A program made the translations under genes and the position numbers. A DNA stretch of 21,680 nucleotides from a virus, in IMG/VR virus record IMGVR_UViG_3300008116_001123, positions 1 through 21,680 of that record, one strand, 5' to 3'. The notes beneath the pieces are model-generated. The model saw only the letters and a program-made list of their open reading frames with translations, did not search any database and was not told the DNA's origin. Positions 1 through 16,759 of the stretch are shown here, in pieces (the stretch's first letter is position 1; every line of letters starts with the position of its first letter).

Positions 1-510
1 GTGGTAACAACACCAGTAACAATGTTACCAGTCTGTAAGGTACCAGTATTATAGAAGACATTGGTACCACTGAGTGTAGTAACAACACCAGTTACAATGT
101 TACCTGTTGTAGCATTAGCGGTTCCAAAATTACCAGTGGTATAAGTGGCATTAGAACCGCTAAGTGTGGTAACAACACCAGTAACGATATTACCCGTTGC
201 GATTGTAGCAGTTCCAGAAGTGAATAATGTCGTTACGATACCAGTGACAATTCTACCAGTCTGTAGAGTACCAGTATTGTAGAACGCATTGGTACCAGAA
301 ATCGTGGTAACAACACCAGTTACAATGTTACCTGTTGTAGCATTAGCGGTTCCAAAGTTTCCAGTCGTATAAGTGGCATTGGTACCACTTAAGGTTGTGA
401 CTACACCCGTTACGATGTTACCTGTTTGAAGGGTACCAGTGTTATAAAAAGCATTAGTACCAGAAATCGTGGTAACAATACCAGTAACAATATTACCAGT
501 GGTAGCATTA
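1..510 (-). repeat. Coding tandem module array, block 1
   Basis: This is the C-terminal repeat region of the gene starting at 3164. In gene direction the modules read B-A-B-C-A-B and then leave the window. A is 30 aa (core TGNIVTGVVTTLSG, then SNATYTTGNFGTANAT), B is 25 aa (ending ISGTNAFYNTGTLQ) and C is 21 aa (ending LFTSGTATIA). All unit lengths are multiples of three, so gain or loss of whole modules keeps the frame. Confidence 0.85.
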
Positions 511-3164
511 AGTGTAGTTAAGTTACCAGTCGTACTATTTAAATTCGTGATGGTTCCTACACCACCATTAACATTGCCACTAAAAGTAATTGCAGTTATT
601 ACACCCGTGATTCTAGTATCACCGAGTACATCTAATTTTGCTGTTGGAACAATCGTACCTATACCAACTCTTTGAGTATTGGTAGCTCTTAAAACCTCAA
701 GACCATCAGTATTGAGTCTAATTGTTCCATTCGATCCAGTATCATCAATCGCAATTGATGTATCACCGATTTGTAAAGCACTGGTTTGAAGAACAGATGC
801 TGTCAGGATACCACTAACATTCAGATTACCATCAATATTAGTCTCGGAATTTCCAGATGGATTGATATTAATATTTCCAGAAGTTGATGTGATTTCATTT
901 CCAGAAATTTGTATATTTCCAACTGTTAGATAAGTTGGGGTTAACGTATTTGTATTTGTTCCGTCTGTAACATTTAAGTCAGAAAGACTATTCAGTGTAA
1001 AGTTCTGCCCACCAAAGTTTACAGTTCCTGCTTCCTGATTAACATAAAATGCATCACCAACTCTAAAGTCACCAGACTGATCGATCGATACAAAATAAAC
1101 ATTTGCATTATTAGTCTTAACAACTTCTGCTGCCTGATTGACTAATGATACATCTTGACTAAAATCTTTTCCGGATCCGATGTGTCCGAAGTTAAATGCA
1201 AACATTCGGAGACCAACACCTGGTCCATCTGCACTGATACCAGTATTACCGAAGACTACAGCAGATCCAATCGATCTCATTTCAGCACCAAACTGCTGAT
1301 AATCTGCTAATGTAATCTTGGTTGCAGTTGCAATACCTACACCAGAACGAACCCAACGAATATCTTGTGCTGGAATTGAACTATCAATAAAGGAAGTACT
1401 TGCAGAAGCACCATCAAGATGGAGAAGAAGTTTATCACTACCATCAGAATTAAACTGAGTCGTTGATGGAGTGAAGGTTGCAGTATATCTTGCAGTATTT
1501 GAAATTCTAACTTCGTCTATATAACCAACAAATGCATTAGTACCAGAATTATCAGCACCAATTGTCAGTTGTCCAGTGTTGTTAATCGCAGAAGAATTTG
1601 TCTCTGTAGTTCCAAGTGCAGTTCCATTTACATAAGCAGTAATCGTTGAACCTGAACGAACTAATGCAATATGAGTCCAAGTATTGATTGAAATCGAACC
1701 ACCAAAAGTTGTAGAAGCACTACCAAAGAAATTGCCAGTTACAACACCACTTTCCAATGAAAAGTGATATCTACCGGTTGTTTCAGTTCCCAATGCAAAC
1801 AGATGACGACTTCCAGTTACACTTGTAGGATAAATCCATGCTTCTGCAGTAAAGTTTCCAGCGAATGTAAAGTCTGATCCACCTTCACATCTTGCATAGT
1901 CTCCTGTACCATCAAGATATAACGATGCAGTTCCAATCTTTTTCTGCAGTGTCGATAACTGAGCATCACCATAAGCAGTTACAGTCTTGCCAAGTCTTGA
2001 TGTTGGGAGTTCAAATAGTCCCTCACCTTTTGCAGTAATAGAAGAAAGACCAGTTGCTGAGGTATAACTTCTAACAGTACCGAAACCTAGTGCTTCTTTA
2101 TAAGATATATTTCCACTGGTGGTTGCAGAACCACCCATTGTAACAGAGAATGTATTGACACCAACATACCCAGTAACGCGATAGAATCCATCAGTTGCTG
2201 TTCCCGAAGTAAAGTCAGCAAAGATTCGATCACCAACTGTTAGTCCATGACCAACTCTGGTAATTGTAAGAGCAGTTCCTACCTGAGAATAAGTACCAGA
2301 CCGATAGTTTGCTTCAAGGTAATAAAGTTCGTCATTTGCTGCGGGAGTTGATCCAGTTAAACCACTTGTCTTAACTCTTACATATCCAGTGCTTCCTACA
2401 CCTACTGATCCATCATAAGCACGAATTCCTTTATCTGCAAAATAACTAAAGCAGTTAACCCATTCGGTTCTACCACCATTTGTCATCTCAAGAGCAGTGT
2501 TATTCGGACAAATGAATGTACATTCATTGAATAACATTGCTGGTTCAAGTGTGGTTGGATCAACTACACTACCATCGATTAAAACACCACGACCTGCTTT
2601 ATATGAAGTTGGTGGTGAATGAGCAGTATCAAATCCATATGGATCTGTTGCAGAAGTTATTGAACCTTTATTAAGTACAGTAACTCTCTGAACATAAGGG
2701 GAACGAGTTGTGGTCTTAGAATTATTGGCAAACTTGAATGCATAACCAGGTTCATTGATATTACCAATGGTCAAATCTTCAATAGTGGTTTCTCCATTTA
2801 ATAAGAAACCATCATTTTGTCTTGTTCCTGATGTAGGTTGAACAAATGTACCACGAAGTCCCGTACCTTTAACATTTACACCTACAGGAATTGTAAGTGG
2901 AAAAACTTCAGTAAACGTACCTGACTGAACAAAGATTGTATCTCCAGACGTTGATACACTTAATGCTTTAGCAATCGTTGCAAATGGTCTGTTGATGGTA
3001 GTTCCTGCATATCCATCATTACCATTCGTCGAAACATAATATGTCTTTCCAGGAGCATTTAAGTTTCCATCAAGTAAAGTAACTGCCGTTACTATACCTG
3101 CTTGAATTGTAACACCTACACCTACTTCTAAACCGCGCTTTACCCTAAAATTCTGGTCTGCCAA
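1..3164 (-). CDS. Large tail-fibre/adhesin-like virion protein with beta-helix, LamG-like and repeat domains (C-terminus off the window)
   Basis: An open frame of 1054 codons runs off the left edge, so the C-terminus is missing. I choose TTG at 3164 as start: an in-frame TGA lies two codons upstream, an AGGGGA ribosome site lies about 10 nt upstream, and the N-terminus MADQNFRVKRGLEVG is a common type in cyanophage fibre proteins. Residues about 31-110 (APGKTYYVSTNGNDGYAG, then RPFATIAKAL) look like the start of a right-handed beta-helix (pectin-lyase-like) fold. Residues about 415-580 look like a LamG/concanavalin-type jelly roll (YLDGTGDYARCEG, FTAEAWIYP, WTHIALVRSG, VGYIDEVRISNTARY, LLLHLDG). 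Residues from about 885 form the TGNIVTG module array. I infer a virion surface protein that binds a host glycan; the ligand is unknown. A late promoter lies at 3194-3201. Confidence 0.85.
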   Translation of the reverse strand, partial: MADQNFRVKRGLEVGVGVTIQAGIVTAVTLLDGNLNAPGKTYYVSTNGNDGYAGTTINRPFATIAKALSVSTSGDTIFVQSGTFTEVFPLTIPVGVNVKGTGLRGTFVQPTSGTRQNDGFLLNGETTIEDLTIGNINEPGYAFKFANNSKTTTRSPYVQRVTVLNKGSITSATDPYGFDTAHSPPTSYKAGRGVLIDGSVVDPTTLEPAMLFNECTFICPNNTALEMTNGGRTEWVNCFSYFADKGIRAYDGSVGVGSTGYVRVKTSGLTGSTPAANDELYYLEANYRSGTYSQVGTALTITRVGHGLTVGDRIFADFTSGTATDGFYRVTGYVGVNTFSVTMGGSATTSGNISYKEALGFGTVRSYTSATGLSSITAKGEGLFELPTSRLGKTVTAYGDAQLSTLQKKIGTASLYLDGTGDYARCEGGSDFTFAGNFTAEAWIYPTSVTGSRHLFALGTETTGRYHFSLESGVVTGNFFGSASTTFGGSISINTWTHIALVRSGSTITAYVNGTALGTTETNSSAINNTGQLTIGADNSGTNAFVGYIDEVRISNTARYTATFTPSTTQFNSDGSDKLLLHLDGASASTSFIDSSIPAQDIRWVRSGVGIATATKITLADYQQFGAEMRSIGSAVVFGNTGISADGPGVGLRMFAFNFGHIGSGKDFSQDVSLVNQAAEVVKTNNANVYFVSIDQSGDFRVGDAFYVNQEAGTVNFGGQNFTLNSLSDLNVTDGTNTNTLTPTYLTVGNIQISGNEITSTSGNININPSGNSETNIDGNLNVSGILTASVLQTSALQIGDTSIAIDDTGSNGTIRLNTDGLEVLRATNTQRVGIGTIVPTAKLDVLGDTRITGVITAITFSGNVNGGVGTITNLNSTTGNLTTLNATTGNIVTGIVTTISGTNAFYNTGTLQTGNIVTGVVTTLSGTNATYTTGNFGTANATTGNIVTGVVTTISGTNAFYNTGTLQTGRIVTGIVTTLFTSGTATIATGNIVTGVVTTLSGSNATYTTGNFGTANATTGNIVTGVVTTLSGTNVFYNTGTLQTGNIVTGVVT

Positions 3165-3186
3165 GGTTCACTATCCCCTATGGTTC
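3164..3186 (-). repeat. 23-bp leader repeat, copy 1
   Basis: A 23-bp perfect direct repeat shared with 7515-7537. It contains the AGGGGA ribosome site used by the TTG start at 3164. Each copy sits just downstream of a late promoter box. Confidence 0.9.
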
Positions 3187-3193
3187 TTTTATG

Positions 3194-3201
3194 TATTTAT
3201 C
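3194..3201 (-). promoter_or_regulatory. T4-type late promoter box GATAAATA
   Basis: GATAAATA on the minus strand, about 30 nt before the TTG at 3164. It overlaps the TGA stop (3200-3202) of the upstream gene. It is one base from the T4 late consensus TATAAATA. Confidence 0.7.
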
Positions 3202-3589
3202 AAACCACGATTGTATTAAATTGAAGTTTAAAGGTTGTTGCTGAAGAACTTGCAGGGGTAGCAAGTAATCTAATGTTCCCACCAGAGATGTCTACATCAT
3301 AAGTCGCAACTGCAGAATTATTATAAACAGATCCATATTCGGTTAGATAAGCAGTTGTGCCGTTATGAACTACAAGTATTTTTGTAGTATGGAAATTAGT
3401 ATTCTGAGTTGCTTGAACAATGTACTCGACGGAACGATAAGAAGCAGCTGCAATAGAATGAATTCCAACTTGAGATGTTGATAATGTTGTTGCAGTTGCA
3501 GATCCTATTCTGCTTGAAGTTGTATCATGAGTTGGTGCAGTTATTATACCAGAAACATTTGCATTAGTGTAAGTTAAATTAGTACCACT

Positions 3590-4052
3590 AATTGTAGTAA
3601 CAACACCAGTTACAATATTACCAGTGGTAGCGTTAGCAGTCGTAAAGTTACCAGTGGTATAAGTGGCGTTAGTACCACTTAATGTAGTGACAACACCAGT
3701 TACAATATTTCCAGTGGTAATATTAGCGGTTCCAAAATTACCAGTGGTATAAGTAGCGTTAGAACCACTTAGAGTTGTGACTACACCAGTAACAATGTTA
3801 CCCGTTGCGATTGTAGCAGTTCCAGAAGTAAATAGTGTCGTTACAATACCAGTTACTATATTACCAGTCTGTAGAGTACCAGTGTTATAAAAAGCATTAG
3901 TACCAGAAATCGTGGTAACAACACCTGTTACGATGTTACCAGTGGTAGCGTTAGCAGTCGTAAAGTTACCAGTGGTATAAGTGGCATTAGAACCACTCAG
4001 AGTTGTGACTACACCTGTTACGATATTTCCAGTGGTAGCGTTAGCAGTCGTA
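3590..4052 (-). repeat. Coding tandem module array, block 2
   Basis: Modules in gene direction are A-B-C-A-A followed by a divergent last unit. The 5' edge of the block in sense orientation coincides exactly with the second frame break. Confidence 0.8.
3939..4052 (-). repeat. 114-bp perfect direct repeat, copy 1
   Basis: Identical base for base to 5038-5151 (offset 1099). In sense orientation its 5' edge is the exact point where the reading frame of the fibre gene breaks. Within the repeat the TTANATTGNIVTG frame is intact. Confidence 0.9.
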
Positions 4053-4624
4053 GGTATTATTAATCGTACCTAAAGTGCTTACACCAGTAGCATTAATGTT
4101 TGATATTGTTAATTGGTTGTTAGTTAATAGTGTTACACCATTAATCTCATAAACTTTACCAGAAGCAAGGTTAAAGTTCTCACTTGACTTTAATGCAGTA
4201 TTAGTGTAGTCCCAAGTTAAGGTTTTTCTACTTGCAGTAGATCCGATACCAATACCAGCACCATCAAGAAGTAAATCTGATGTAACTGTACCAGCAATGC
4301 CAACAACAAAATCCGCAAGTTCAATTGCTGTTGAATTAACAACAGTTTGTGTACCATCTACATATAAATCACCTTTAATTCTAACTGCACCAGTATTATC
4401 ACCAACACCAGCAGGATCAATCGTAATTACTGATGGACCACTAATAGTATTTGTATCGATATTAATTCCAAATCCAGAATTTCCAGTGGAGAGTCTGGTT
4501 GTTGCTGTTACTACACCAGAACTAATTGTAACTCCAGTACCAACGTTAAGTTGAGTTGTAAATGTACCAACACCAGAATAATTAAGATGAGTACCTGAGA
4601 TAAAAGTAACTACACCAGATACAA

Positions 4625-5151
4625 TATTACCAATAGTAGCGTTAGCAGTCGTAAAGTTACCAGTGGTATAAGTGGCATTAGAACCGCTAAGTGTGGTAAC
4701 AACACCAGTAACAATGTTACCTGTTTGAAGGGTACCAGTATTGTAGAACGCATTGGTACCACTTAAGGTTGTGACTACACCTGTTACAATATTACCAGTG
4801 GTAGCATTAGCGGTTCCAAAATTACCAGTCGTATAAGTTGCATTGGTACCACTTAAGGTTGTGACTACACCAGTAACAATGTTTCCAGTGGTAATATTAG
4901 CGGTTCCAAAATTACCAGTGGTATAAGTTGCATTGGTACCACTTAAGGTTGTGACTACACCAGTAACAATGTTTCCAGTAGCAATCGTAGCTGTACCAGA
5001 AGTGAATAAGGTGGTTACGATACCAGTTACAATGTTTCCAGTGGTAGCGTTAGCAGTCGTAAAGTTACCAGTGGTATAAGTGGCATTAGAACCACTCAGA
5101 GTTGTGACTACACCTGTTACGATATTTCCAGTGGTAGCGTTAGCAGTCGTA
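4625..5151 (-). repeat. Coding tandem module array, block 3
   Basis: Modules in gene direction are A-C-A-A-B-A, then a degenerate unit (TIGNIVSGVVTFISG) leading into the non-repetitive domain. One B unit has a hybrid core (TTLSGTNAFYNTG), suggesting exchange between module types. Confidence 0.8.
5038..5151 (-). repeat. 114-bp perfect direct repeat, copy 2
   Basis: Identical to 3939-4052. Its 5' edge in sense orientation (5151/5152) is the first frame break: the frame of the 5' segment continues for only about 11 more residues and stops at 5117. Confidence 0.9.
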
Positions 5152-7456
5152 TAGTAACATTTGCCGTATTAATGGTGGCAGTGCCAGAAGTAAATAGTGT
5201 AGTTACGATACCAGTAACGATTCTACCAGTCTGTAAAGTACCAGTATTGTAGAAAGAATTAGTACCCGAAATCGTGGTTACAATACCAGTAACAATGTTA
5301 CCTGTTTGAAGGGTACCAGTGTTATAGAAAGCATTGGTACCAGAAATGGTAGTTACAACACCTGTTACAATGTTTCCAGTGGTAATATTAGCGGTTCCAA
5401 AATTACCAGTGGTATAAGTGGCATTAGAACCACTCAGAGTTGTGACTACACCTGTTACAATATTACCAGTGGTAGCATTAGCAGTTCCAAAGTTTCCAGT
5501 CGTATAAGTTGCATTGGTACCACTTAAGGTTGTGACTACACCAGTAACAATGTTACCTGTTTGAAGGGTACCAGTGTTATAGAAAGCATTGGTACCAGAA
5601 ATGGTAGTTACAACACCTGTTACAATGTTTCCAGTGGTAGCGTTAGCAGTCGTAAAGTTACCAGTGGTATAAGTGGCATTAGAACCACTCAGAGTTGTGA
5701 CTACACCTGTTACAATATTACCAGTGGTAGCGTTAGCAGTCGTAAAGTTACCAGTGGTATAAGTGGCATTAGATCCAGAAAGAGTTGTTACAACACCAGT
5801 AACAATATTACCTGTTGTAGCATTAGCGGTTCCAAAATTACCAGTGGTGTAAGTTGCATTGGATCCAGAAAGAGTTGTTACGACACCAGTAGTAACATTT
5901 GCCGTATTAATGGTGGCAGTGCCAGAAGTAAATAGTGTAGTTACGATACCAGTGACTATATTACCTGTTACGATTGTAGCAGTTCCAGAAGTGAATAATG
6001 TCGTTACGATACCAGTAACAATGTTACCTGTTTGAAGGGTGCCAGTATTATAAAAAGCACTAGTACCAGAAATCGTGGTAACAACACCAGTTACAATGTT
6101 ACCTGTTGTGGCGTTGGCAGTTCCAAAGTTTCCAGTCGTATAAGTAGCATTAGAACCGCTAAGTGTGGTAACAACACCTGTTACAATGTTTCCAGTAGCA
6201 ATCGTAGCTGTACCAGAAGTAAATAGTGTGGTTACAATACCAGTAACAATGTTACCTGTAGTAATATTAGCAGTTCCAATATTAGCAGTAGTATTATTAA
6301 GGGTTCCAATTGTACCAATACCACTAACGTTAAGGTTAGGTACTGTTAATGTTGTAGCACTTAATACTTCGGTTCCATTAATTTTATATACTTTATTAAT
6401 CGCTAGATCAAGATTTTCACTAGATTTTAAAGAAAGTGTTGGATAGTTCCAATTAAAACTTTTACGAACAGCAATTGTACCTAAAGCAAATCCAGCTCCA
6501 TCAAGAAGCACATCAGTATTTGCAGCAGTTGCAATTCCGATTTCAATATCTACAATATCAACAATATTAGAATTGACAATAGTTTGTGTGCCATCTACAT
6601 AAAGGTCACCCTTAATTCTTACAGCACCAGTGTTATCACCAATGCCTGCTGGATCAATAAAAATAATTGATGGTCCACTAATTGTATTGGTGGTAATATT
6701 GATACCTTCTCCAGGAACACCTGTAGACAATCTTGTTGAAGCTGTGATTATGCCACTAGGTGTCAAACTAACTCCAGATCCAACTCTTACTAAACTATTA
6801 AATGTACTGATTCCAGTAACATAAAATCCATTGAGTACATTAACAACGTTTTGTCCAGTTGAAGATCCTAATCTTAGATCTCCAGATACACTATTAATTG
6901 TTATCGAATCATCAAGTGCTAAGCGTAAATCTTTAATAAATGCTGCACTATCTCCAAAAATAGTTCCAACAAATGTACTGCTTCCAGTAATAAGAACGTT
7001 ACCATCTACATATAATTTTTGTGCAGAATCTGTACTACCAATAGCAACATCACCAGAGCTATTGATGACAAATTTTGTTATATCTGGATTTGTCTCATCT
7101 TCAACTACAAAAGCATTACCAGAACCCGTCTGAGTAATACGAACCATATCTGATGATGTGGTTCCTGAAAATAGTCCAGCAATATTACTCGAAGTTGGAA
7201 CTACATGAAACTTTGCTCCTACATTCTGAGTTCCAACACCCACAAGATTATCATAGTAAATTGATCCTGCACCAAAGTTCTCCGCCCAAGGTGTTAATAA
7301 AGCAATGGTTGTACCTATTCCAACACCAGCAGTGTCTCTCTTTGCCCATAGGTAACCATCATAAAAGTTAAGAGCTAATTCACCTAGTTGTAAATCCGAT
7401 ACCTGGGGTCTCTTTCCTGTTACAGCAGACCTTTTTAATCTAATTGGAGTTGCCAT
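5117..7456 (-). CDS. Tail-fibre/adhesin-like virion protein, 5' segment of a split gene
   Basis: A 779-aa frame starting at ATG 7456. Residues 1-45 (MATPIRLKRSAVTGKRP, DLQLGELALNFYDGYLW) match the N-terminal fold seen in many phage fibre and tropism-determinant proteins (LKR...GELA.N..DG). Residues about 45-250 carry VGIGTT and KLYVDG-type strands. Residues about 250-290 have INITTNTISGP and RIKGDLYVDGTQT. Residues about 400-768 are the module array, in order C-A-B-C-C-A-A-A-B-A-A-B-B-C. The last 11 residues (after 5151) are out of frame with the continuing repeats, so this stop is probably not the true end; the intact gene would run to 3200. A late promoter (7549-7556) and a 23-bp leader repeat precede it. 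I infer a fibre or adhesin; the receptor is unknown. Confidence 0.8.
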   Translation of the reverse strand: MATPIRLKRSAVTGKRPQVSDLQLGELALNFYDGYLWAKRDTAGVGIGTTIALLTPWAENFGAGSIYYDNLVGVGTQNVGAKFHVVPTSSNIAGLFSGTTSSDMVRITQTGSGNAFVVEDETNPDITKFVINSSGDVAIGSTDSAQKLYVDGNVLITGSSTFVGTIFGDSAAFIKDLRLALDDSITINSVSGDLRLGSSTGQNVVNVLNGFYVTGISTFNSLVRVGSGVSLTPSGIITASTRLSTGVPGEGINITTNTISGPSIIFIDPAGIGDNTGAVRIKGDLYVDGTQTIVNSNIVDIVDIEIGIATAANTDVLLDGAGFALGTIAVRKSFNWNYPTLSLKSSENLDLAINKVYKINGTEVLSATTLTVPNLNVSGIGTIGTLNNTTANIGTANITTGNIVTGIVTTLFTSGTATIATGNIVTGVVTTLSGSNATYTTGNFGTANATTGNIVTGVVTTISGTSAFYNTGTLQTGNIVTGIVTTLFTSGTATIVTGNIVTGIVTTLFTSGTATINTANVTTGVVTTLSGSNATYTTGNFGTANATTGNIVTGVVTTLSGSNATYTTGNFTTANATTGNIVTGVVTTLSGSNATYTTGNFTTANATTGNIVTGVVTTISGTNAFYNTGTLQTGNIVTGVVTTLSGTNATYTTGNFGTANATTGNIVTGVVTTLSGSNATYTTGNFGTANITTGNIVTGVVTTISGTNAFYNTGTLQTGNIVTGIVTTISGTNSFYNTGTLQTGRIVTGIVTTLFTSGTATINTANVTIRLLTLPLEIS
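5152..6270 (-). repeat. Coding tandem module array, block 4
   Basis: Fourteen modules (C-A-B-C-C-A-A-A-B-A-A-B-B-C in gene direction) of 90, 75 and 63 nt. Several neighbouring copies are nearly identical at the DNA level and differ mainly at third codon positions. Two C units end in the variant TINTANVT. Confidence 0.85.
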
Positions 7457-7484
7457 TTATCTTAAGACGGTATGTACCTTTTTT

Positions 7485-7498
7485 GCAGTATATACTGC
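7485..7498. other. 14-bp perfect palindrome in a fibre-gene leader
   Basis: GCAGTATATACTGC lies 29 nt upstream of the ATG at 7456, inside the roughly 90-nt leader. On the minus strand it is followed by an A-run, not a T-run, so it is not a terminator for the leftward transcript. It could be a leader hairpin or a dyad binding site. Confidence 0.5.
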
Positions 7499-7514
7499 TT
7501 ATCTTAGACTATCC

Positions 7515-7537
7515 AGGTTCACTATCCCCTATGGTTC
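7515..7537 (-). repeat. 23-bp leader repeat, copy 2
   Basis: Identical to 3164-3186, with the AGGGGA motif. Here it lies about 60 nt before the ATG at 7456, so its ribosome site no longer fits the start. This looks like a relic of an exchanged 5' end. Confidence 0.9.
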
Positions 7538-7548
7538 GTCTTTATATG

Positions 7549-7556
7549 TATTTATT
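7549..7556 (-). promoter_or_regulatory. T4-type late promoter box AATAAATA
   Basis: AATAAATA on the minus strand, overlapping the TAA stop (7555-7557) of the HNH gene and about 93 nt before the ATG at 7456. It is part of the promoter-plus-leader unit also found at 3164-3201. Confidence 0.65.
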
Positions 7557-7983
7557 AACTGGCGTTATTCCTTCTTGGACGATATGCAAATAAATTAGTT
7601 GGTGGATCAGGTTTCATCCAGTTCTTAATTTTTTCATATCTTTCCATAGAAAAAAACTCCTGTGAGAAGTACCAGTCTTCCCAAGGAGTATGTCCCTTAT
7701 TTTGATTACAGGAATGACAGCAGCAGACGACATTCTTCGTAAAATCCATTCCACCTTTTGATTGTGGAACAATATGATCGATTGTTAGGTTCTCTTCAGA
7801 TTCACAATAAGCACATTTATGATTCCAACTTTCCTTTATCTTTTGCCTCCACATTCGTTTCGCTTCTCCTGGACTTGTTGCATGTAAATTAAACAAGTAT
7901 TCTTTTGGAGAATGTAGAGGTCCCATAAGTGCTTGCGACTTATGATTATTTATCGTGCTTTTTCTTACAGGCACCACGAGCAT
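7555..7983 (-). CDS. HNH endonuclease
   Basis: A 142-aa protein with a complete HNH nuclease core: a first zinc pair C57xxC60, then LTIDHIVPQSKGG (D69, H70), N84 in NVV, and C89xxC92 with NQNKG. HNH proteins of this size in T-even-like phages are often free-standing homing nucleases; the target cannot be told from sequence. The start is uncertain. ATG at 7983 overlaps the upstream 46-aa gene by 38 nt and has only a weak ribosome site. ATG at 7926 (MGPLHSPKEYL) gives a 123-residue protein that keeps the whole HNH core, and lies 20 nt after a late-promoter-like GATAAATA (7947-7954). It sits at the upstream border of the repetitive fibre-gene region. Confidence 0.85.
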   Translation of the reverse strand: MLVVPVRKSTINNHKSQALMGPLHSPKEYLFNLHATSPGEAKRMWRQKIKESWNHKCAYCESEENLTIDHIVPQSKGGMDFTKNVVCCCHSCNQNKGHTPWEDWYFSQEFFSMERYEKIKNWMKPDPPTNLFAYRPRRNNAS

Positions 7984-8086
7984 ATGCTCTTGCCATACTA
8001 TCTACATTTGAACAAGGTTTCCCAGTCTCTCCACAATAAGGGCACTTTACATCAGGTGGATCATTAGGATACTTAAACTTACTCAT
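7946..8086 (-). CDS. Small protein with a CPYC motif, unknown function
   Basis: A 46-aa frame. Its ATG (8086) shares bases with the TGA stop of the upstream gene (ATGA overlap), which suggests translational coupling. The sequence contains KCPYCGETGKPC, then a basic tail (ARGACKKKHDK). The two close cysteine pairs suggest a small zinc-binding fold. It is similar in style to zinc-binding stubs found beside HNH proteins, but I do not recognise a family. Its 3' end contains a GATAAATA box and overlaps the annotated start of the HNH gene. Confidence 0.6.
   Translation of the reverse strand: MSKFKYPNDPPDVKCPYCGETGKPCSNVDSMARAYARGACKKKHDK
7947..7954 (-). promoter_or_regulatory. Candidate late promoter box GATAAATA
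   Basis: GATAAATA overlaps the stop codon of the 46-aa gene. It would only serve the HNH gene if translation starts at the internal ATG 7926. Confidence 0.35.
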
Positions 8087-8391
8087 ACAATGACAGGTTG
8101 CTGTTTACCCTCTGGAAGTTTGATCTGAGGCAATTTATCTGGTTCACGAACCTCCCAAGAACCACCAACACCACCATCCATATTTACTACGATCTCATTG
8201 GTTGGCAATGCCTTAGGAATCTCAACATCAATCACTGGACTCATGAGTGTTTTATTTTTTACAATTTCACGATTTGGTCCGTCTAGATGCATCATCATTC
8301 TTGCATCTTCAAAATTACCACAATCACAAATTTTTTTATGAGTTCTTTTTTCTCTTACTGAAAAATAATCTTCACTATTGTACTTGTTCAT
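8083..8391 (-). CDS. Hypothetical protein, 102 aa
   Basis: I do not recognise a family. It is hydrophilic, with a CDCGNF motif near residue 22 (possibly half a metal site), then a GGVGGSWEVREPDKLPQIKLPE segment whose Pro/Lys/Glu-rich end is probably extended. There is no signal peptide or membrane segment. The start ATG (8391) overlaps the end of the upstream gene by 17 nt, and its stop overlaps the next ATG. It belongs to a tight run of four small genes between the 1013-aa virion gene and the HNH gene. Confidence 0.65.
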   Translation of the reverse strand: MNKYNSEDYFSVREKRTHKKICDCGNFEDARMMMHLDGPNREIVKNKTLMSPVIDVEIPKALPTNEIVVNMDGGVGGSWEVREPDKLPQIKLPEGKQQPVIV

Positions 8392-8650
8392 GATGTTGCT
8401 TCAGATCTGGATTTGACTGAGATGAAATTACAGGATTGCGACTACGATTTTTAATAACAATAAAAGAATCGTTCTGATAAGTTACAGATCCAAATGGTTT
8501 TGCCCACTTTGGATTTGCATCTGGATGAGTAGATGTTCCTGTATACGCTACACCACCTACCTCAACACGAATATCATCGTATGAATCCCAATTTAATTCT
8601 TGAAGAGCAATGGCAAGTTGTCCCAACCAAGGAGACGGTTTCTTACCCAT
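8375..8650 (-). CDS. Hypothetical protein, 91 aa
   Basis: Unknown family. I prefer ATG 8650 (MGKKPSPWLGQL): it overlaps the stop of the upstream 50-aa gene (ATGGGTAA), an AGAAGAGAA purine run lies just before it, and the longer version from GTG 8752 would read through that whole upstream gene in another frame. Visible segments are a Trp-containing amphipathic N-terminus (LGQLAIALQELNWDSYDDI), a GGVAYTG turn, FGSVTYQNDSFIVI strands and a His/Gln-rich tail. It is probably a small soluble alpha/beta protein. No function is inferred. Confidence 0.6.
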   Translation of the reverse strand: MGKKPSPWLGQLAIALQELNWDSYDDIRVEVGGVAYTGTSTHPDANPKWAKPFGSVTYQNDSFIVIKNRSRNPVISSQSNPDLKQHHEQVQ

Positions 8651-8795
8651 CACATTCTCTTCTGGTTCTAGATTTCCAATCATCGTATGTTTCATTCTTC
8701 TGATCATTATAACGTGAATTTTGCAATATGTAAAGTTGTGGCCAAGTATCACGAATGATCTCGGCCAACTTATAAGGAGTTTCAGATGTAATCAT
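8643..8795 (-). CDS. Small hypothetical protein, 50 aa
   Basis: A short frame starting at ATG 8795 (MITSETPYKLAEIIRDTWP), eight bases after the stop of the 1013-aa gene. The N-terminal half looks like an amphipathic helix; the rest is charged (YDDWKSRTRRECDG). It ends inside the start of the next gene with an 8-base overlap, a typical coupled phage arrangement. I do not recognise a family. Support is its position, the overlap and a protein-like composition. Confidence 0.5.
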   Translation of the reverse strand: MITSETPYKLAEIIRDTWPQLYILQNSRYNDQKNETYDDWKSRTRRECDG

Positions 8796-8803
8796 TTAGT
8801 ATG

Positions 8804-11800
8804 TTATGCTTGTGCTTCAGTCCAGGATAGACGTGCAAAGATTTTTGCATCACCACCCTCAAGAGTATTCGCAATAATTGCTAACACATCAGGTCCATCT
8901 GGATAAGGTGCTGAATTTACAGGTGCTCCACCACCACCCAGAATAGAATTACCCAAATCTCTAAGTTGAGTAAGATCCAGAGAGTTTACACCAGTTCCGA
9001 CAAAAAATCCAGAGATAACTTCTCCACCTGTAACAGTAACGGGTCCTGTTGCCGAGTGAATTTGTGCCAATGATGAATTCACAACGTTTGCAGCACCACC
9101 AACAGCATTTGTCCAGTTTGCGGCAGTTGAAATCCCAACAGGATTCAAAATAGCCTGAACGAGAAGTCTCTTATCAGAACTAATATCAAGTGCTCTCAGA
9201 GTTAACTGCATTCGATTGACAAGTTCTCTTGTTCCAAAAATACCAGTCTGACCATTATCGACAGATGGTGCCACTCGAATTGCAAGAAGCAAACTTCTTG
9301 CTCCCTTACCACTAAGGGTAACTTCGTTTGACTGACCAAATGTAAAGATCAGAGATTTGTCATCATCAAATCTACCATCCATCATTACAGAAGTACCCCA
9401 GTGTGAAATGGTTGGACCAAAAGTTGGATAGGCAAGTTCAACAGCAGCTGCTGCACCAGGATTATTTGAGTCATAAGTAAATGCCTGTCCAGTATTAGCA
9501 CCCATTGCTGGGAATGTTACAACACCTGCAGTAATTGGTCCAGTTGCTGCTTGGGATAGTGTAATGGCAGTCGGTGATGTAATTGCAGAAATCCATGTTC
9601 CGTCTGGAAAACTTGGATGGACTGCTCTCATACCAATTTGAAGGTTGGCAGTGGATCCTACTGCAGTGCAAGAGTTTGATCCTTGAGTAACTGTTAGAGT
9701 TACTGCCCCACCAGCTTTTGCTCTGCTAACTTGAGTAAACGCTGTAGTTCCAATGCCAGCATAATTTATATACTCATAAGTTTCTGCATCACGAATAACA
9801 AGTGTTCCTGTTGGTGGAAATCCAGCAGTGGTTGTAACACCAATAAATGTTTCCGAAGTACCAACACTTCTATTAATTTGAGTTGTTGGTGGAACTGCCT
9901 GAGATTCATAACGAGCTGGCAAATTACCAGATCTCATATATGCTTCGGTATTAATATTATTATTTGCTATCTTATGACAATAAAGAACATTTCCATCTGG
10001 ACCACGAAGACCATATCTAATAAATCCTGCACCATACCATGAATAATCAATATACCACATTTGCATCTTACCAAGATCAAGAGTCATCCCCGATGGTCCA
10101 GTACCATTAAGTTTATCAATATTCCACTCTGATTGTGGAACTCTTAGATTAATAGTTTCAGATATATTGACATAATCTGCATTGGCACCACGATATGATG
10201 GAGAGATTGTCAATGATGTATCATTTGCAATATCAATGACACGATATGATTGTCCACGAATAACAACATAACTACCAATCTGTAATTGTTTTGAAAAGAA
10301 AGTTGGGAATGAAGAATTTGTTTGAGTTATTGTATTTGTGTTTTGTACTACACTAACTTTTCCAGAAAGTTGGAAAGTTGAACTTCTACGGACTGCATAA
10401 AGTTGTTGTCCATCATACTCAAAATACATTCCATTTTGTTCATCAAAAATGCCGAGTCTATTTGTAGCACCATACCAATTTGTTACGGTTACATAAGGAG
10501 TTCCACCAGTTGCAACTGTTGTAGCAGCTCCGATTGGTAAAGAATATTGGAAAGAATTATATCCAGTAACAGAAGTAATCGTGTAATTTCCATTATATGC
10601 AGTTTGAGCAGATCCTGTAATTGATATATTTGTACCAGGTTGGATATTATGCTGTTCTTTTGTAATGACATTTACAGTTGATCCAGCACTTACTCCAGTA
10701 GCACTAATAGAATCAATTTGTAAGTTTGGTCTTAGAATTGTACCAGAACTTACTTGAATGCCTTTACCAGACTGATAACGGAAATATCTTCTCGTCTGTC
10801 TGACCATTGTTTCAAAATTTCCATTGGCATTTGATGAGAAAATAACTCCACCATCATATGGTCTATGCAATACATTCCCCTGAGGAATAACATAAATTTC
10901 TCCACCACTTACAGTACCAGTTGGAATTGGATTTGTTGAAATAGCAACTTGGAATGCTCTGGCACTGCTAACACCAACAATTGAGAAAGATCCGTTAGGT
11001 GGATTAGTCGTTGCAGTTGTACCCCTAATTGCAACGTTGTTGCCAATTGCTAGTCCATGAGGAACTGTGGTAAAGAACGTTACAATTCCTGTTCCTGAAT
11101 ATTGAACTGCTGTTGGAGTTGATCCAATTCTAGCAGAGGTAAAGAGTAGAGCACTAGAAATTCCAGTTTTATTCGTATCAAAGATATTGGTAATGTTTGT
11201 AGTATTGGTCTGAGTTGCTGTATAAGTAAATATTGTATTTCCTGCACCACTTACAGATTCAACAATAAAATTGCCATTAGCAGGAGATAAGAACGTATCG
11301 GTAATGTTAACTGGAGTTCCAACAGAAGGAGCAGCACCAGCAAGTCCAACTCTTACGGTTCTAGAATTTGTTAAGAATTCAATAAAGTTAATTCCAGTAA
11401 TATTAATTGGAGATGAGAAAGCAAAAGGTCTCTGATTAATTAATGCAAGATTTTCCCATTTCGTAGTTTGAGATCCATATTCAAAGTCAGTATCAATGAG
11501 TGCTTGTGGAGTTGATACTCTTAACTTATTAACAGGATCAGTATACTCCTCCGATGGCATAAATCTTTCATTATAGTCATCAAAGATAATGGCAAGTTTA
11601 TCACTATCCGACATTGAAGTCGTATTAAACTGCAGTGTTATTTCAGTTGTATTTGCATTTGCAGCACCTGATGTTGTATAAGCAGTTGCTTTTAAAGTTG
11701 AATCAGTAAAATTATAAATTATTTGGTTTGTAGTTACGTTGGTGATAAGTACAAGTCTTTCCCTAGGGATAACTCTAGGAATGATAATTTTTTTCGATGC

Positions 11801-11900: not shown

Positions 11901-12962
11901 TTATAGTGCATTTCCGCGAGGCAAAACTTCCTCTGGGAACACAAAGTTCTCATGAGGTTGATCTACTGGAGCCATCCAAGCACGAAGACCTTCATTAAGG
12001 AGGATATTCTTTGTGTAGAAAGTTTCAAACTCAGGGTCTTCTGCCGCTCTAATTTCCTGACTCACAAAATCGTAAGCACGAAGGTTAAGAGCCAAGCCAA
12101 TAATACCAATGGAAGAAGTCCAGAGGCCCATAACTGGGACGAAGAGCATAAAGAAATGAAGCCAACGCTTGTTACTAAAAGCAATGCCGAATATCTGCGA
12201 CCAAAAACGGTTCGCAGTAACCATTGAATAAGTCTCTTCCTCTTGAGTCGGTTCAAATGCTTTGAAAGTGTTCGCTTGATTGCCATCTTCGAATAATGTG
12301 TTTTCTACAGTAGCTCCGTGAATCGCACAGAGCAGTGCTCCTCCCAGTATACCAGCAACTCCCATCATATGGAAGGGGTTGAGGGTCCAGTTGTGGAAAC
12401 CTTGTAGGAACAGAAGGAACCTGAAGATTGCTGCCACACCAAACGATGGAGCAAAGAACCAACTGGATTGTCCCAGAGGATACATCAGGAAGACACTGAC
12501 GAAGACTGCAATAGGACCAGAGAACGCAATGGCATTGTAGGGTCTGATGCCCACCAGGCGGGCGATCTCAAACTGCCTGAGCATGAATCCAATCAGACTA
12601 AAGGCCCCGTGGAGCGCCACAAAAGGCCAGAGTCCCCCAAGTTGGAACCACCTGACGATATCCCCTTGAGCCTCAGGACCCCAGAGAAGAAGAAGAGAAT
12701 GACCCATAGAATCTGCTGGAGTACTAACTGCCGCAGTAAGAAAGTTTGCACCCTCAAGATAGGAACTTGCCAACCCATGAGTATACCAACTCGTAACGAA
12801 AGTTGTCCCAGTAAGCCAACCACCAAGAGCAAGGTAAGCAGTGGGAAAAAGAAGAAGTCCAGACCAGCCAACAAAAACGAAACGATCTCTCTTAAGCCAA
12901 TCGTCCAAGACATCAAACCATCCTCTCTGTGAAATTGGTTGTGAAAGTGTAGAAGAAGTCAT
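11901..12962 (-). CDS. psbD: Photosystem II reaction-centre protein D2
   Basis: A 353-aa protein, full length for D2 (usually 352). It keeps the redox tyrosine Y161, the chlorophyll ligand H198 and the non-heme iron ligands H215 and H269, with H190 beside the redox tyrosine, all offset by +1 from usual numbering. The conserved end ([16 protein letters not shown]) is intact. Five membrane helices are expected. In the phage it likely replenishes D2 in the host thylakoid during infection, paired with D1. AGGAGG lies only 2 nt before the ATG; a CTAAATA late-type box is at 12984-12990. Base composition looks richer in G+C than the flanking virion genes, which fits a host origin. The gene ends at a strong terminator. 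Confidence 0.98.
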
Positions 12963-13023: not shown

Positions 13024-13455
13024 TTACTGCTTATGCCGATCAAGGTAAAGTATAAACTCGGAAAAAAGACTCGCATCATCATACGCCTGCCCCAATATCA
13101 TATTACATCTTCTACAAAGTAATTGACGAACCTTTCCAGTTTTATGGTCATGATCTACGCAAAGTTTTTTCCACTTACCATCACCAGGTTTTTTGCAAGT
13201 AGCACAAAGACCATTTTGAACCTCATACATTTCTTGATGTTCTTGAAGAGTTATACCATAGTTTCTCTTTAAGTCATTATTTCTTGTGCGCTCTGGATTT
13301 TCTTGATGTCGTGCTTTCACCCTCGCCTTATCACACTCTTTACAAGCAGAGTGCCTCCTCCCTGTCTTTTTATCACGCATATAAAACTCTGTAATGTGCT
13401 TCTCAACATCACAGGTCATACAAGTTCTATACAGGTCGGAGTATAGTTTAGTCAT
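13024..13455 (-). CDS. Endonuclease VII-type free-standing homing endonuclease
   Basis: A 143-aa protein. The N-terminal part has a zinc ribbon (C12xxC15, C38xxC41). The C-terminal part has the recombination endonuclease VII signature: C84xxC87, then VDHDHKTGKVRQLLC with C114xxC117, and NMILGQAYDD. The DHDH motif supplies the metal and catalytic residues. It lies between intron-bearing psbA and psbD, the position of F-CphI in cyanophage S-PM2, which is reported to cut intronless psbA at the intron site. I infer the same partnership here; cleavage specificity cannot be read from sequence. It has its own TATAAATA box (13479-13486) and no clear ribosome site. The alternative role, a Holliday-junction resolvase like T4 gp49, is less likely given the N-terminal zinc ribbon and the location. 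Confidence 0.85.
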   Translation of the reverse strand: MTKLYSDLYRTCMTCDVEKHITEFYMRDKKTGRRHSACKECDKARVKARHQENPERTRNNDLKRNYGITLQEHQEMYEVQNGLCATCKKPGDGKWKKLCVDHDHKTGKVRQLLCRRCNMILGQAYDDASLFSEFILYLDRHKQ

Positions 13456-13510: not shown

Positions 13511-13521
13511 CCTTTATTATA

Positions 13522-14733
13522 TCACCCGATGGTTGGAGCAGTCAAGGCAACAGGAGTTGCTTCGGCAGCGGCAAGATCAAGTGGGAAGTTGTGAGCATTC
13601 CTTCTGTTTTAACCTCTGTCACCAGAGGGAGCGGACTATATCATCACTCATAAGAGTGTCGGACGCTAGTGGCGTATTACGGATGAAGCGTCATCCACCG
13701 CCTAGTCTCTGAACCTTCCTTACACGCTTGCAAGGCTTGGCTGCTGATTGTCTACAAGAGAGTTCCAGCAATTCATCCGATTTAACGAGCGCCATGCGTT
13801 CACAAAACGCTCGTGCATTACCTCCATTCCTAGACCAGCACGGTTGAGAACATCAGCCCAGGTGTTCAGAACACGACCCTGAGAATCCAGAATCGACTGG
13901 TTGAAGTTGAAGCCGTTGAGGTTGAAGGCCATCGTGGAAACACCAAGAGCAGTGAACCAGATGCCAACTACAGGCCATGCAGCAAGGAAGAAGTGAAGTG
14001 AACGAGAGTTGTTGAATGATGCATACTGGAAGATCAGACGACCAAAGTATCCATGAGCAGCAACAATGTTATAGGTCTCTTCTTCTTGACCAAACTTGTA
14101 CCCATAGTTCTGTGACTCATTCTCAGTGGTTTCACGAACCAGTGAGGAAGTAACTAGAGAACCATGCATAGCAGAGAACAGAGAACCACCAAACACACCA
14201 GCAACTCCAAGCATGTGGAAGGGGTGCATCAGGATGTTGTGCTCTGCCTGGAACACAAGCATGTAGTTAAAAGTACCACTGATACCCAGAGGCATTGCAT
14301 CAGAGAAAGAACCCTGACCAAAAGGATACACCAGGAATACTGCACTCGCAGCAGCAACAGGTGCAGAGTAAGCAACACAGATCCAAGGACGCATACCCAA
14401 ACGATAGGAAAGTTCCCACTCACGACCCATATAAGCATAGATGCCGATGAGGAAGTGGAAGACGACCAGTTGGAAAGGTCCGCCGTTGTAAAGCCACTCA
14501 TCTAGGGAAGCAGCTTCCCAGATGGGGTAAAAGTGCAGTCCAATAGCATTGGACGAAGGAATCACAGCACCAGAGATGATGTTGTTTCCGTACATGAGTG
14601 AACCAGCAACGGGTTCACGGATCATCAGAACGCCAAACCAACCCACATAGAGGCGGTTATCAGTGCTGGTGACCCATTGGCAGAATTGTTCCCAAGTATT
14701 CGATTGTCGTTGTTGAGCGATTGAAGCAGTCAT
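13522..14733 (-). CDS. psbA: Photosystem II protein D1, split by a group I intron; carries a 25-residue internal deletion
   Basis: Exon 1 is 14733-13807 (309 codons) and exon 2 is 13599-13522 (25 codons plus TGA). Spliced, they give 334 aa. Exon 2 restores the normal D1 end ([13 protein letters not shown]...TAPTIG), with ligands H337 and D342 and the processing residue A344 in D1 numbering. Unspliced reading instead runs 27 codons into the intron and stops at 13720, giving a false 337-aa product. Visible D1 features are [45 protein letters not shown] and MEVMHER (H332, E333). LMI at 36-38 is joined directly to REPVAG at 64: residues 39-63 are absent, removing most of helix A and Asp61. D1 is normally about 359-360 aa. 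No ribosome site is seen before the ATG. Confidence 0.93.
13600..13806 (-). ncRNA. Group I self-splicing intron in psbA (207 nt, no ORF)
   Basis: The core elements are readable on the minus strand: P AATTGCTGGAA (13763-13773), Q AATCAGCAGCCAAG (13736-13749), R TCAGAGACTA (13703-13712) and S GATATAGTCC (13633-13642). R and S give P7 (GACTA/TAGTC). The exon end ACGAGCGT pairs with the guide GCGCTCGT (13785-13792) over eight pairs ending in the U.G wobble that marks the 5' splice site. The last intron base is G. GCAT just before the guide can pair with ATGC of exon 2 (P10). A CTCTG-GTGA-CAGAG hairpin (13614-13627) fits P9 with a GNRA loop, and CACTC/GAGTG (13645-13658) fits P8. S-PM2 psbA is reported to have an intron of about 212 nt. 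Confidence 0.95.
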
Positions 14734-14785
14734 TGTTAGTAAAAGAAAAGTAAGACCATCAGGGAAATGGTGGTGTTACTATGCT

Positions 14786-14804
14786 CCCCGCACCCTCAGC
14801 GGGG
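14786..14804 (-). promoter_or_regulatory. GC-rich hairpin in the psbA leader
   Basis: CCCCGC / GCGGGG stem with a 7-nt loop, about 50 nt before the psbA ATG. It is not followed by a T-run on the minus strand, so it is not a terminator. It may stabilise the mRNA 5' end or control translation. Confidence 0.5.
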
Positions 14805-14817
14805 ATATGAGAGACGT

Positions 14818-14825
14818 GATTTATA
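14818..14825 (-). promoter_or_regulatory. Possible second promoter box TATAAATC in the psbA leader
   Basis: It differs from the late consensus only at the last base and lies 85 nt before the psbA ATG. It sits at the foot of a second possible hairpin, ACACCC / GGGTGT (14825-14852). Confidence 0.3.
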
Positions 14826-14897
14826 CACCCATAGGTCTCGGTTAGCGGGTGTGTGACAATGTTAAGAATTATGAGAAATCCGTAACATTTGTTTACC

Positions 14898-14957: not shown

Positions 14958-15191
14958 CTACCTGTTGTAGACACCTCTTGGGAATACCTGTCCCTGTGAT
15001 GGTCTTCTACCAGTCAACCAACCTGGTTGTGCCTGGGAAAGATCAAAATCCGTAGAATTATAATTATCAGTTTGAACCAAATCACTAGAATTACTAATTG
15101 TATAACCAGCAGTTGATTGTGCTAAAAAAGAAACTGTTGTAGCAACTCCTGCCGCTGCTGTAGTTAAATTTACGATTGTAAAATCAGCCAT
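14958..15191 (-). CDS. Small protein of a virion operon, 77 aa
   Basis: I choose ATG 15191 (MADFTIVNLTTAAAG). It shares one base with the TGA of the upstream gene (TGATG), and GAGGAAAG lies just upstream as a ribosome site; a TTG one codon earlier is less likely. The N-terminus is Thr/Ala-rich and the end is polar (QPGWLTGRRPSQGQVFPRG). There is no membrane segment or recognised domain. As the last gene before the operon terminator, translated coupled to the 522-aa virion protein, it is plausibly a minor structural or accessory virion protein. Confidence 0.65.
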   Translation of the reverse strand: MADFTIVNLTTAAAGVATTVSFLAQSTAGYTISNSSDLVQTDNYNSTDFDLSQAQPGWLTGRRPSQGQVFPRGVYNR

Positions 15192-16759
15192 CAAACTTTC
15201 CTCGCACAGAACAGAAGTCCAGCAGTTTCATTATATTGACTATAAGATCCAGTGATAACTGTATAAACTTCAGATCCACTAATTGTAATTGTATCCCCTT
15301 GCTGAATGTTAGTAGCAGCAGTGGCATATCTAAAATCAATAATTACAAAATCATCAGGAAGATAATAAGGACAAGGAACTAAATTACCATTCAAAGGAAT
15401 CCCTTTGATTACAGCATTATAGTTAACGGCAGAGCTAATGAATGTGGAAATTCCAGCACTATATCCATTACTGTCAGTTACATCCATTACAGATTTTGGA
15501 TCAGAAGAACTTGATCTCCGTGTGAAAATTCTAGATCCAGTATAACTAACACCTTGATAATTAGTAGCAGGATCGGTTGTAAAAGTATCTAGTGTTTTTG
15601 ATGTTGTATCAAAAGTATAGCAAATTTGACTAGAACTACTTCCAGTTGATCTAGACATATATCCACCTTCAGCAGTTCCATAACAAACTTCATATGTATT
15701 ACTTCCACTATTTCTACCATTACCACCAACGAAAGTTCTGAATTCTAACCTTCCAGCAGTATTATTACCAGATGCTGAACAAGCATTTGGATGAATTGTA
15801 GTTAATCCTCCCAAGAAAACATGATCTAAATCCCATAAAGTTGAATCAAAATTATGAAGAATAAATGTTAAAAAGGTATTGTCGGTAATTGATGAATTAG
15901 CAACTGTTGGTTGAGAATATGAAAGAACAGCAAATCTTGGATCAATACCAGAACGATAGATATTTAATTTAAGAGCATGAGTTGTTGGTGAGTTTGATGT
16001 GGCAAATTGACCTCTAGTTGGGTCAAGTTGCGAATATCTTCCAAAATTACTTACGCTAGCTGTTGTTTCAAGATAATCAACACCAGATGAATATGGGGCC
16101 GCACTGGGAGTTCTATCAATACCACCAACACCAGCAAATCTTGTCCCATATCCAAGACCTCTATTGGTTATATTAGTAGCACCAGGTTGGAAAGCAGATC
16201 CACTTCCAATTAGCATTTGATAATTATTTCCATAAACCTGAAATGCTCTATAAGTAGTACCCTTTGCTTTGTTGGAGTTGATAACATGTCTCAATACACC
16301 CCATGGAGAATTAGTACCACCAGTTACTTGTTTAGCATAAAACTCATTAGTACTTCCAAATCCAGTTGGTGATGCACCTCCAGATACACTAACAGTAATT
16401 GCAATACCAACAGAACTGCCGACACTTGCTCCACTAATTTGAACTATTTCATTATTAACATATCCACTTCCTGGTCTATCAACATAAATTGCGTCAATTA
16501 TTCCACTTCCATTTCTTGTAACATAAAAACTTGCCCCCGTTCCAACGCCAGAAGTTGATACTTGTCTAACATCTGGGAAAAAAGAAGATGCATATCCTGT
16601 AGTCGTACCACCACCACTATAAGCTGCGATTCCAGTTACAATTCCAACGACTTGATCTCCATGCCAACCTAACCATGTAAATGCTTCTTCTAACTGAGTG
16701 ATAACCTCAGTTCTTGCCCACCCTGCGTTTTTTGTAATTGTGGTTGTTGTGATAGCCAT
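15191..16759 (-). CDS. Virion structural protein of the cyanomyovirus type, 522 aa
   Basis: The start at ATG 16759 is supported by GGAGGT about 10 nt upstream, which lies in the last codons of the preceding gene. The N-terminus (MAITTTTITKNAGWARTEVI, then EEAFTWLGWHG) is followed by Gly/Ser/Thr-rich beta structure, with a repeated FYVTRNGSG...VDRPGSGYVNNEIVQISG motif around residues 75-110, a common fold in phage structural proteins. The end is INIQQGDTITISGS-like strands (here NIQQGDTITISGSEVYTVIT). No enzyme motif is seen. It lies 6 nt downstream of a fibre-like gene, so it is probably made late and incorporated in the tail or baseplate. The exact role is unknown. Confidence 0.7.
   Translation of the reverse strand: MAITTTTITKNAGWARTEVITQLEEAFTWLGWHGDQVVGIVTGIAAYSGGGTTTGYASSFFPDVRQVSTSGVGTGASFYVTRNGSGIIDAIYVDRPGSGYVNNEIVQISGASVGSSVGIAITVSVSGGASPTGFGSTNEFYAKQVTGGTNSPWGVLRHVINSNKAKGTTYRAFQVYGNNYQMLIGSGSAFQPGATNITNRGLGYGTRFAGVGGIDRTPSAAPYSSGVDYLETTASVSNFGRYSQLDPTRGQFATSNSPTTHALKLNIYRSGIDPRFAVLSYSQPTVANSSITDNTFLTFILHNFDSTLWDLDHVFLGGLTTIHPNACSASGNNTAGRLEFRTFVGGNGRNSGSNTYEVCYGTAEGGYMSRSTGSSSSQICYTFDTTSKTLDTFTTDPATNYQGVSYTGSRIFTRRSSSSDPKSVMDVTDSNGYSAGISTFISSAVNYNAVIKGIPLNGNLVPCPYYLPDDFVIIDFRYATAATNIQQGDTITISGSEVYTVITGSYSQYNETAGLLFCARKV

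Follow-up and report, generated by a model that had tools for sequence, protein, structure and literature searches.

Two frameshifts in a cyanomyophage fibre gene: very probable scars of short-read assembly at its longest internal repeat

The large tail-fibre-like proteins of cyanomyophages, such as those of S-SRM01 (QPX48298.1), S-SM2 (E3SJ01) and S-TIM5 (H6WG57), share a C-terminal beta domain that occurs frequently at the termini of fibre-like proteins in cyanophages. In S-SRM01, a cultured freshwater Synechococcus phage, the protein is encoded by one uninterrupted CDS of 1540 codons, with short shaft-like repeats of a GV/GI-T style similar to those described here. The collapse of repeats and the formation of chimeric joins when metagenomes are assembled from short reads by k-mer (de Bruijn) methods have been discussed in general (PMC8172020), while the titles and abstract openings surveyed held nothing specific on an artefact of exactly the present type in phage fibre genes. 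Here, such a fibre gene was analyzed in a window of 21,680 nucleotides (IMG/VR record IMGVR_UViG_3300008116_001123), a fragment of an S-PM2-like cyanomyophage that carries psbA and psbD. The gene is interrupted by two frameshifts in this record. Comparison with related contigs indicates that both are almost certainly products of short-read misassembly at the longest internal repeat, and that the gene of the phage is intact.

The fibre gene and its surroundings

The original prediction described three open segments (7456-5117, 5168-4041 and 4052-3200) reading as one fibre protein, the last two of them without a start codon, with both breaks exactly at the sense-side edges of the 114-bp repeats 5038-5151 and 3939-4052. 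Re-translation of the frames bore out the continuity: the second open frame (5168-4041, minus strand) translates to 375 aa and the third (4051-3200, minus strand) to 283 aa. From 5116 to 3200 the minus strand contained no ORF of at least 60 aa initiated by ATG, GTG or TTG, and the position of the breaks was likewise confirmed. The 114-bp pair is the longest exact repeat in the window and the sole exact repeat of that length. The features are listed below, the breaks and repeats being described relative to an independent assembly, IMG/VR contig 3300027816_000371 (L009).

5117..7456, minus strand: first segment, with an ATG start and 779 codons, the last few out of frame beyond break 1
5151..5152, minus strand: break 1, a blunt join of L009 9305 to 9361, with 55 bases missing and the frame lost
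5038..5151, minus strand: copy 1 of the 114-bp repeat, a truncated copy of the 143-bp repeat at L009 9332-9474
4053..5151, minus strand: second segment, matching L009 9361-10459 without a difference over 1099 bp
4052..4053, minus strand: break 2, a blunt join of L009 10459 to 10561, with 101 bases missing and the frame lost
3939..4052, minus strand: copy 2 of the 114-bp repeat, a truncated copy of the 143-bp repeat at L009 10532-10674
3200..4052, minus strand: third segment, with the last shaft repeats and the C-terminal beta domain (3556-3203); stop at 3202-3200
3600..3709, minus strand: in-frame difference, one 90-bp (30-codon) unit of L009 being absent from the window
3..3164, minus strand: next gene, cut by the window end, encoding a baseplate wedge/tail-fibre-like protein with a Laminin_G_3 domain

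The first segment comprises an N-terminal domain, a module at about 6290-6800 and the beginning of the repeat shaft, and in the second the shaft goes on and the globular module occurs once more (about 4100-4600). In the intact L009 protein the N-terminal domain is accompanied by both module copies (residues about 220-380 and 990-1150), the shaft and the C-terminal beta domain, which is predicted with a mean pLDDT of 90. The shaft consists of repeats 21, 25 and 30 residues long, of the kind TGNIVTGVVTTLSGSNATYTTGNFTTANAT. The 779-aa first segment had no match in PHROGs or Pfam; segments 2 and 3 gave weak PHROG matches and none in Pfam. A long intact ORF, a repeat shaft, the shared C-terminal beta domain and adjoining structural genes are all present, as in cyanomyophage tail-fibre-like genes. 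Because of these resemblances and the gene neighbourhood, a putative tail-fibre role is assigned, and the gene appears to encode an ordinary, if long, repeat-shafted protein of this type in an S-PM2-like cyanomyophage.

The downstream end of the neighbouring baseplate wedge/fibre-like gene (3164-3), which continues in L009 and L015 (the same contig), carries the same shaft repeats as the fibre gene. A 37-bp element (ATAAATAC...GAACCATAGGGGATAGTGAACCT, sense strand) precedes both fibre-like genes, at 3164-3200 and 7515-7551, the two copies being 86% identical; a close copy lies at the corresponding place in another contig, 3300008110_000207 (L013). It probably represents a late promoter of T4 type, with a leader common to these genes. 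An HNH endonuclease gene (7555-7983, minus strand) lies immediately upstream of the fibre gene, and in S-SRM01 an HNH gene likewise stands just before the gene with the matching N-terminus. Further away, psbA (13520-14733, minus strand) holds a group I intron near its 3' end (13612-13846, Rfam RF00028, 85.8 bits), followed by exon 2, and is adjoined by a free-standing endonuclease-VII-like gene (13024-13455), the S-PM2/F-CphI arrangement known as “collaborative homing” (PMC6083498). A PhotoRC-II RNA (RF01717) is located at 14771-14864 (minus strand), just upstream of psbA. Among the structural genes, a 522-aa ORF (15191-16759, minus strand) had no PHROG match.

The same gene in independent records

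IMG/VR was searched with the N-terminal 384 residues of the fibre protein, and two contigs were found to encode an identical stretch, namely L009 and L010 (3300031784_000344). L009 is 100% identical to the window over 14456-5152 (9305 bp), 5151-4053 (1099 bp), 4052-3600 (453 bp) and 3709-1 (3709 bp). Its fibre gene is a single uninterrupted ORF of 1500 codons (L009 7001-11503), and the first segment of the window equals L009 from 7001 to 9305, as far as window position 5152. Relative to this ORF, L009 9306-9360 (55 bp) and 10460-10560 (101 bp) are missing from the window, and so is a tandem unit of 90 bp, a third difference that could not be recognized from the window by itself. These omissions total 246 bp, or 82 codons, which is the exact difference between 4503 and 4257 bases. 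It had been predicted that two extra bases at the first break and one at the second shift the frame; these values are correct modulo 3 (55 mod 3 = 1; 101 mod 3 = 2), whereas they do not stand as insertions, since comparison with L009 reveals omissions. L010 is identical to the window for 8871 bp and then ends within the repeat array, at window position 5586. The three records, of one phage and with no substitution between them, thus disagree only in the repeats, which L009 resolved, at which L010 stopped and which in the window were glued.

Taken literally, the window contains two losses of frame, as would be seen in a decaying or defective fibre gene in which real deletions had become fixed in the lineage. 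Against this, there are zero substitutions between the window and L009 over more than 14 kb, segments downstream of the breaks included, and no biological reason exists for damage restricted to the longest repeats. Decay is accordingly considered exceedingly improbable.

The distribution of repeats locates the discrepancies precisely. The longest exact repeat in the combined sequence of L009 and L015 is the 143-bp pair (9332-9474 and 10532-10674), followed by a 110-bp tandem overlap (10904-11013 and 10994-11103) and then by pairs of 108 bp and less. The independent assembly differs from the window only at the 143-bp and 110-bp repeats. Each copy of the 143-bp pair carries one of the frame-breaking joins and is reduced to its last 114 bases, and the in-frame loss (window 3600-3709), possibly a collapse, lies at the 110-bp tandem overlap. 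Repeats of 102, 100, 99 and 95 bp in the shared stretch, clear of the 143-bp pair, are reproduced in the window; away from that pair, repeats of 100 bp and less were resolved. The coincidence of breaks with repeats is far beyond chance, yet it belongs to the contig and not to the phage.

A second case was provided by a homologous fibre gene of a different phage, represented by L012 (3300031963_000063) and L013, with 54% identity to the window gene in the N-terminal part and 76% in the C-terminal part. The fibre ORF of L012 is intact, with 1868 codons; together with the 1500 aa encoded by L009, this homologue upholds the prediction of one giant fibre gene. L013 is identical to L012 on either side, but its fibre gene is broken. 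The longest repeat of L012 is a 128-bp pair (11369-11496 and 12077-12204). L013 follows each copy for exactly 114 bases and then departs from L012, at 11482 with the omission of 105 bases (in frame) and at 12190 with that of 89 (frame lost). A contig from another sample, L016, reads through the second site in the same way as L012. The longest remaining exact repeat is exactly 114 bp in both broken records. The same ceiling in two unrelated contigs, together with omissions of 55, 101, 105 and 89 bases that ignore the reading frame, points to a limit of the assembler rather than to phase variation, selection or recombination. In the downstream baseplate/fibre-like gene, L016 (3951-4236) and L017 show two in-frame differences of a 78-bp unit in otherwise identical records; these sit at tandem overlaps of 77 and 86 bp and reflect either collapse or real length variation.

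Origin of the joins

Between the omitted pieces and the joined ends of breaks 1 and 2, no shared bases were found, neither microhomology nor a homopolymer tract. The 27-base junction word of break 1 and the 29-base word of break 2 occur in no other IMG/VR contig, among few records and with those very near the window possibly absent from the search; the intact sequence across break 2 is present in one IMG/VR contig only, that of L009.

It had been proposed that recombination between modules leaves small indels by which the C-terminus is switched on or off; such switching would affect part of the phage population. The existence of an intact and a broken form with otherwise identical flanks, in L009 and the window and likewise in the second phage, is in keeping with such phase variation. 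The modules, however, repeat in register (21, 25 and 30 codons), so homologous exchange between them preserves the frame, and the joins are blunt and without microhomology. Moreover, in both phages the frame-breaking joins are confined to the longest repeat, of which exactly 114 bp remain, two separate frame losses in one gene do not make a simple switch, and the broken form does not recur in the few IMG/VR records bearing on it. With L009 intact and the same scar present in an unrelated contig, the switching proposal is not sustained, and real phase variation is regarded as highly unlikely. Equally slight is the chance that both forms are present in the phage population through illegitimate deletions at the longest repeat, some virions carrying a truncated fibre.

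Programmed ribosomal frameshifting or splicing would also join the segments, and is consistent with a final frame equal to the initial one and with the group I intron in psbA on the same contig. By Rfam scan, however, neither break contains an intron; coding bases are absent, not shifted; and the intact ORF of L009 needs no recoding. Recoding or an intron was therefore rejected on the basis of the scan and of L009, its probability being practically negligible.

Misassembly of the repeats, which the original prediction had offered as its other explanation, is strongly supported by the intact, otherwise identical L009, by the breaks at the longest repeats and by the recurrence of the scar in L013. 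The phage would carry one intact gene (1500 codons in L009) with a shaft of 21-, 25- and 30-residue repeats. The assembler would have been unable to carry the longest exact repeat, of 143 bp in two copies 1200 bp apart, and flanking pieces would have been glued bluntly onto repeat copies cut to 114 bp, with 55 and 101 bases dropped. Because the omitted lengths are arbitrary, the reading frame would be lost twice. One 90-bp tandem unit would have collapsed elsewhere in the array; since its 110-bp tandem is below the 114-bp ceiling, this in-frame difference could reflect either collapse or genuine length variation. The joins were also compared with the ordinary unitig ends that L009 would yield at some k and did not correspond to them, the longest branching match being 7-8 bases. 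A plain de Bruijn break is thus insufficient, and a later gluing step is needed. From these sequence comparisons we infer that the joins arose during assembly and were not present in the DNA, presumably through such a step.

Implications and comparison with known systems

One false case of fibre phase variation is thereby removed; the frameshifts are best disregarded and the contig marked accordingly. For IMG/VR, the combination of a frame break at an exact repeat with a longest repeat of constant length, which is 114 bp in the two unrelated contigs compared here, can serve as a rule for recognizing an assembly scar. Fibre genes rich in repeats rank among those likeliest to be miscalled as broken or split in viral metagenomes.

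As regards the protein, the C-terminal domain is 60% identical over 89 residues to that of S-SRM01, and the fold also matches. The cyanomyophage relatives differ from the window gene in repeat sequence and in the N-terminus, the N-terminal relative in S-SRM01 being located in a neighbouring gene. The beta fold of the C-terminal domain also resembles T4 gp9 (1qex), the long-tail-fibre connector (TM by query 0.62), and the C-terminal domains of Acinetobacter phage tailspikes, a likeness at 9% identity that concerns the fold of one domain only.

As regards the breaks, the closest described system is repeat misassembly in de Bruijn assemblers. The joins in the window differ from it in being blunt and in leaving a constant 114-bp remnant. 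They agree with it in that sequence is lost or misjoined at repeats near the resolving limit, and in that assemblies of one genome disagree only there.
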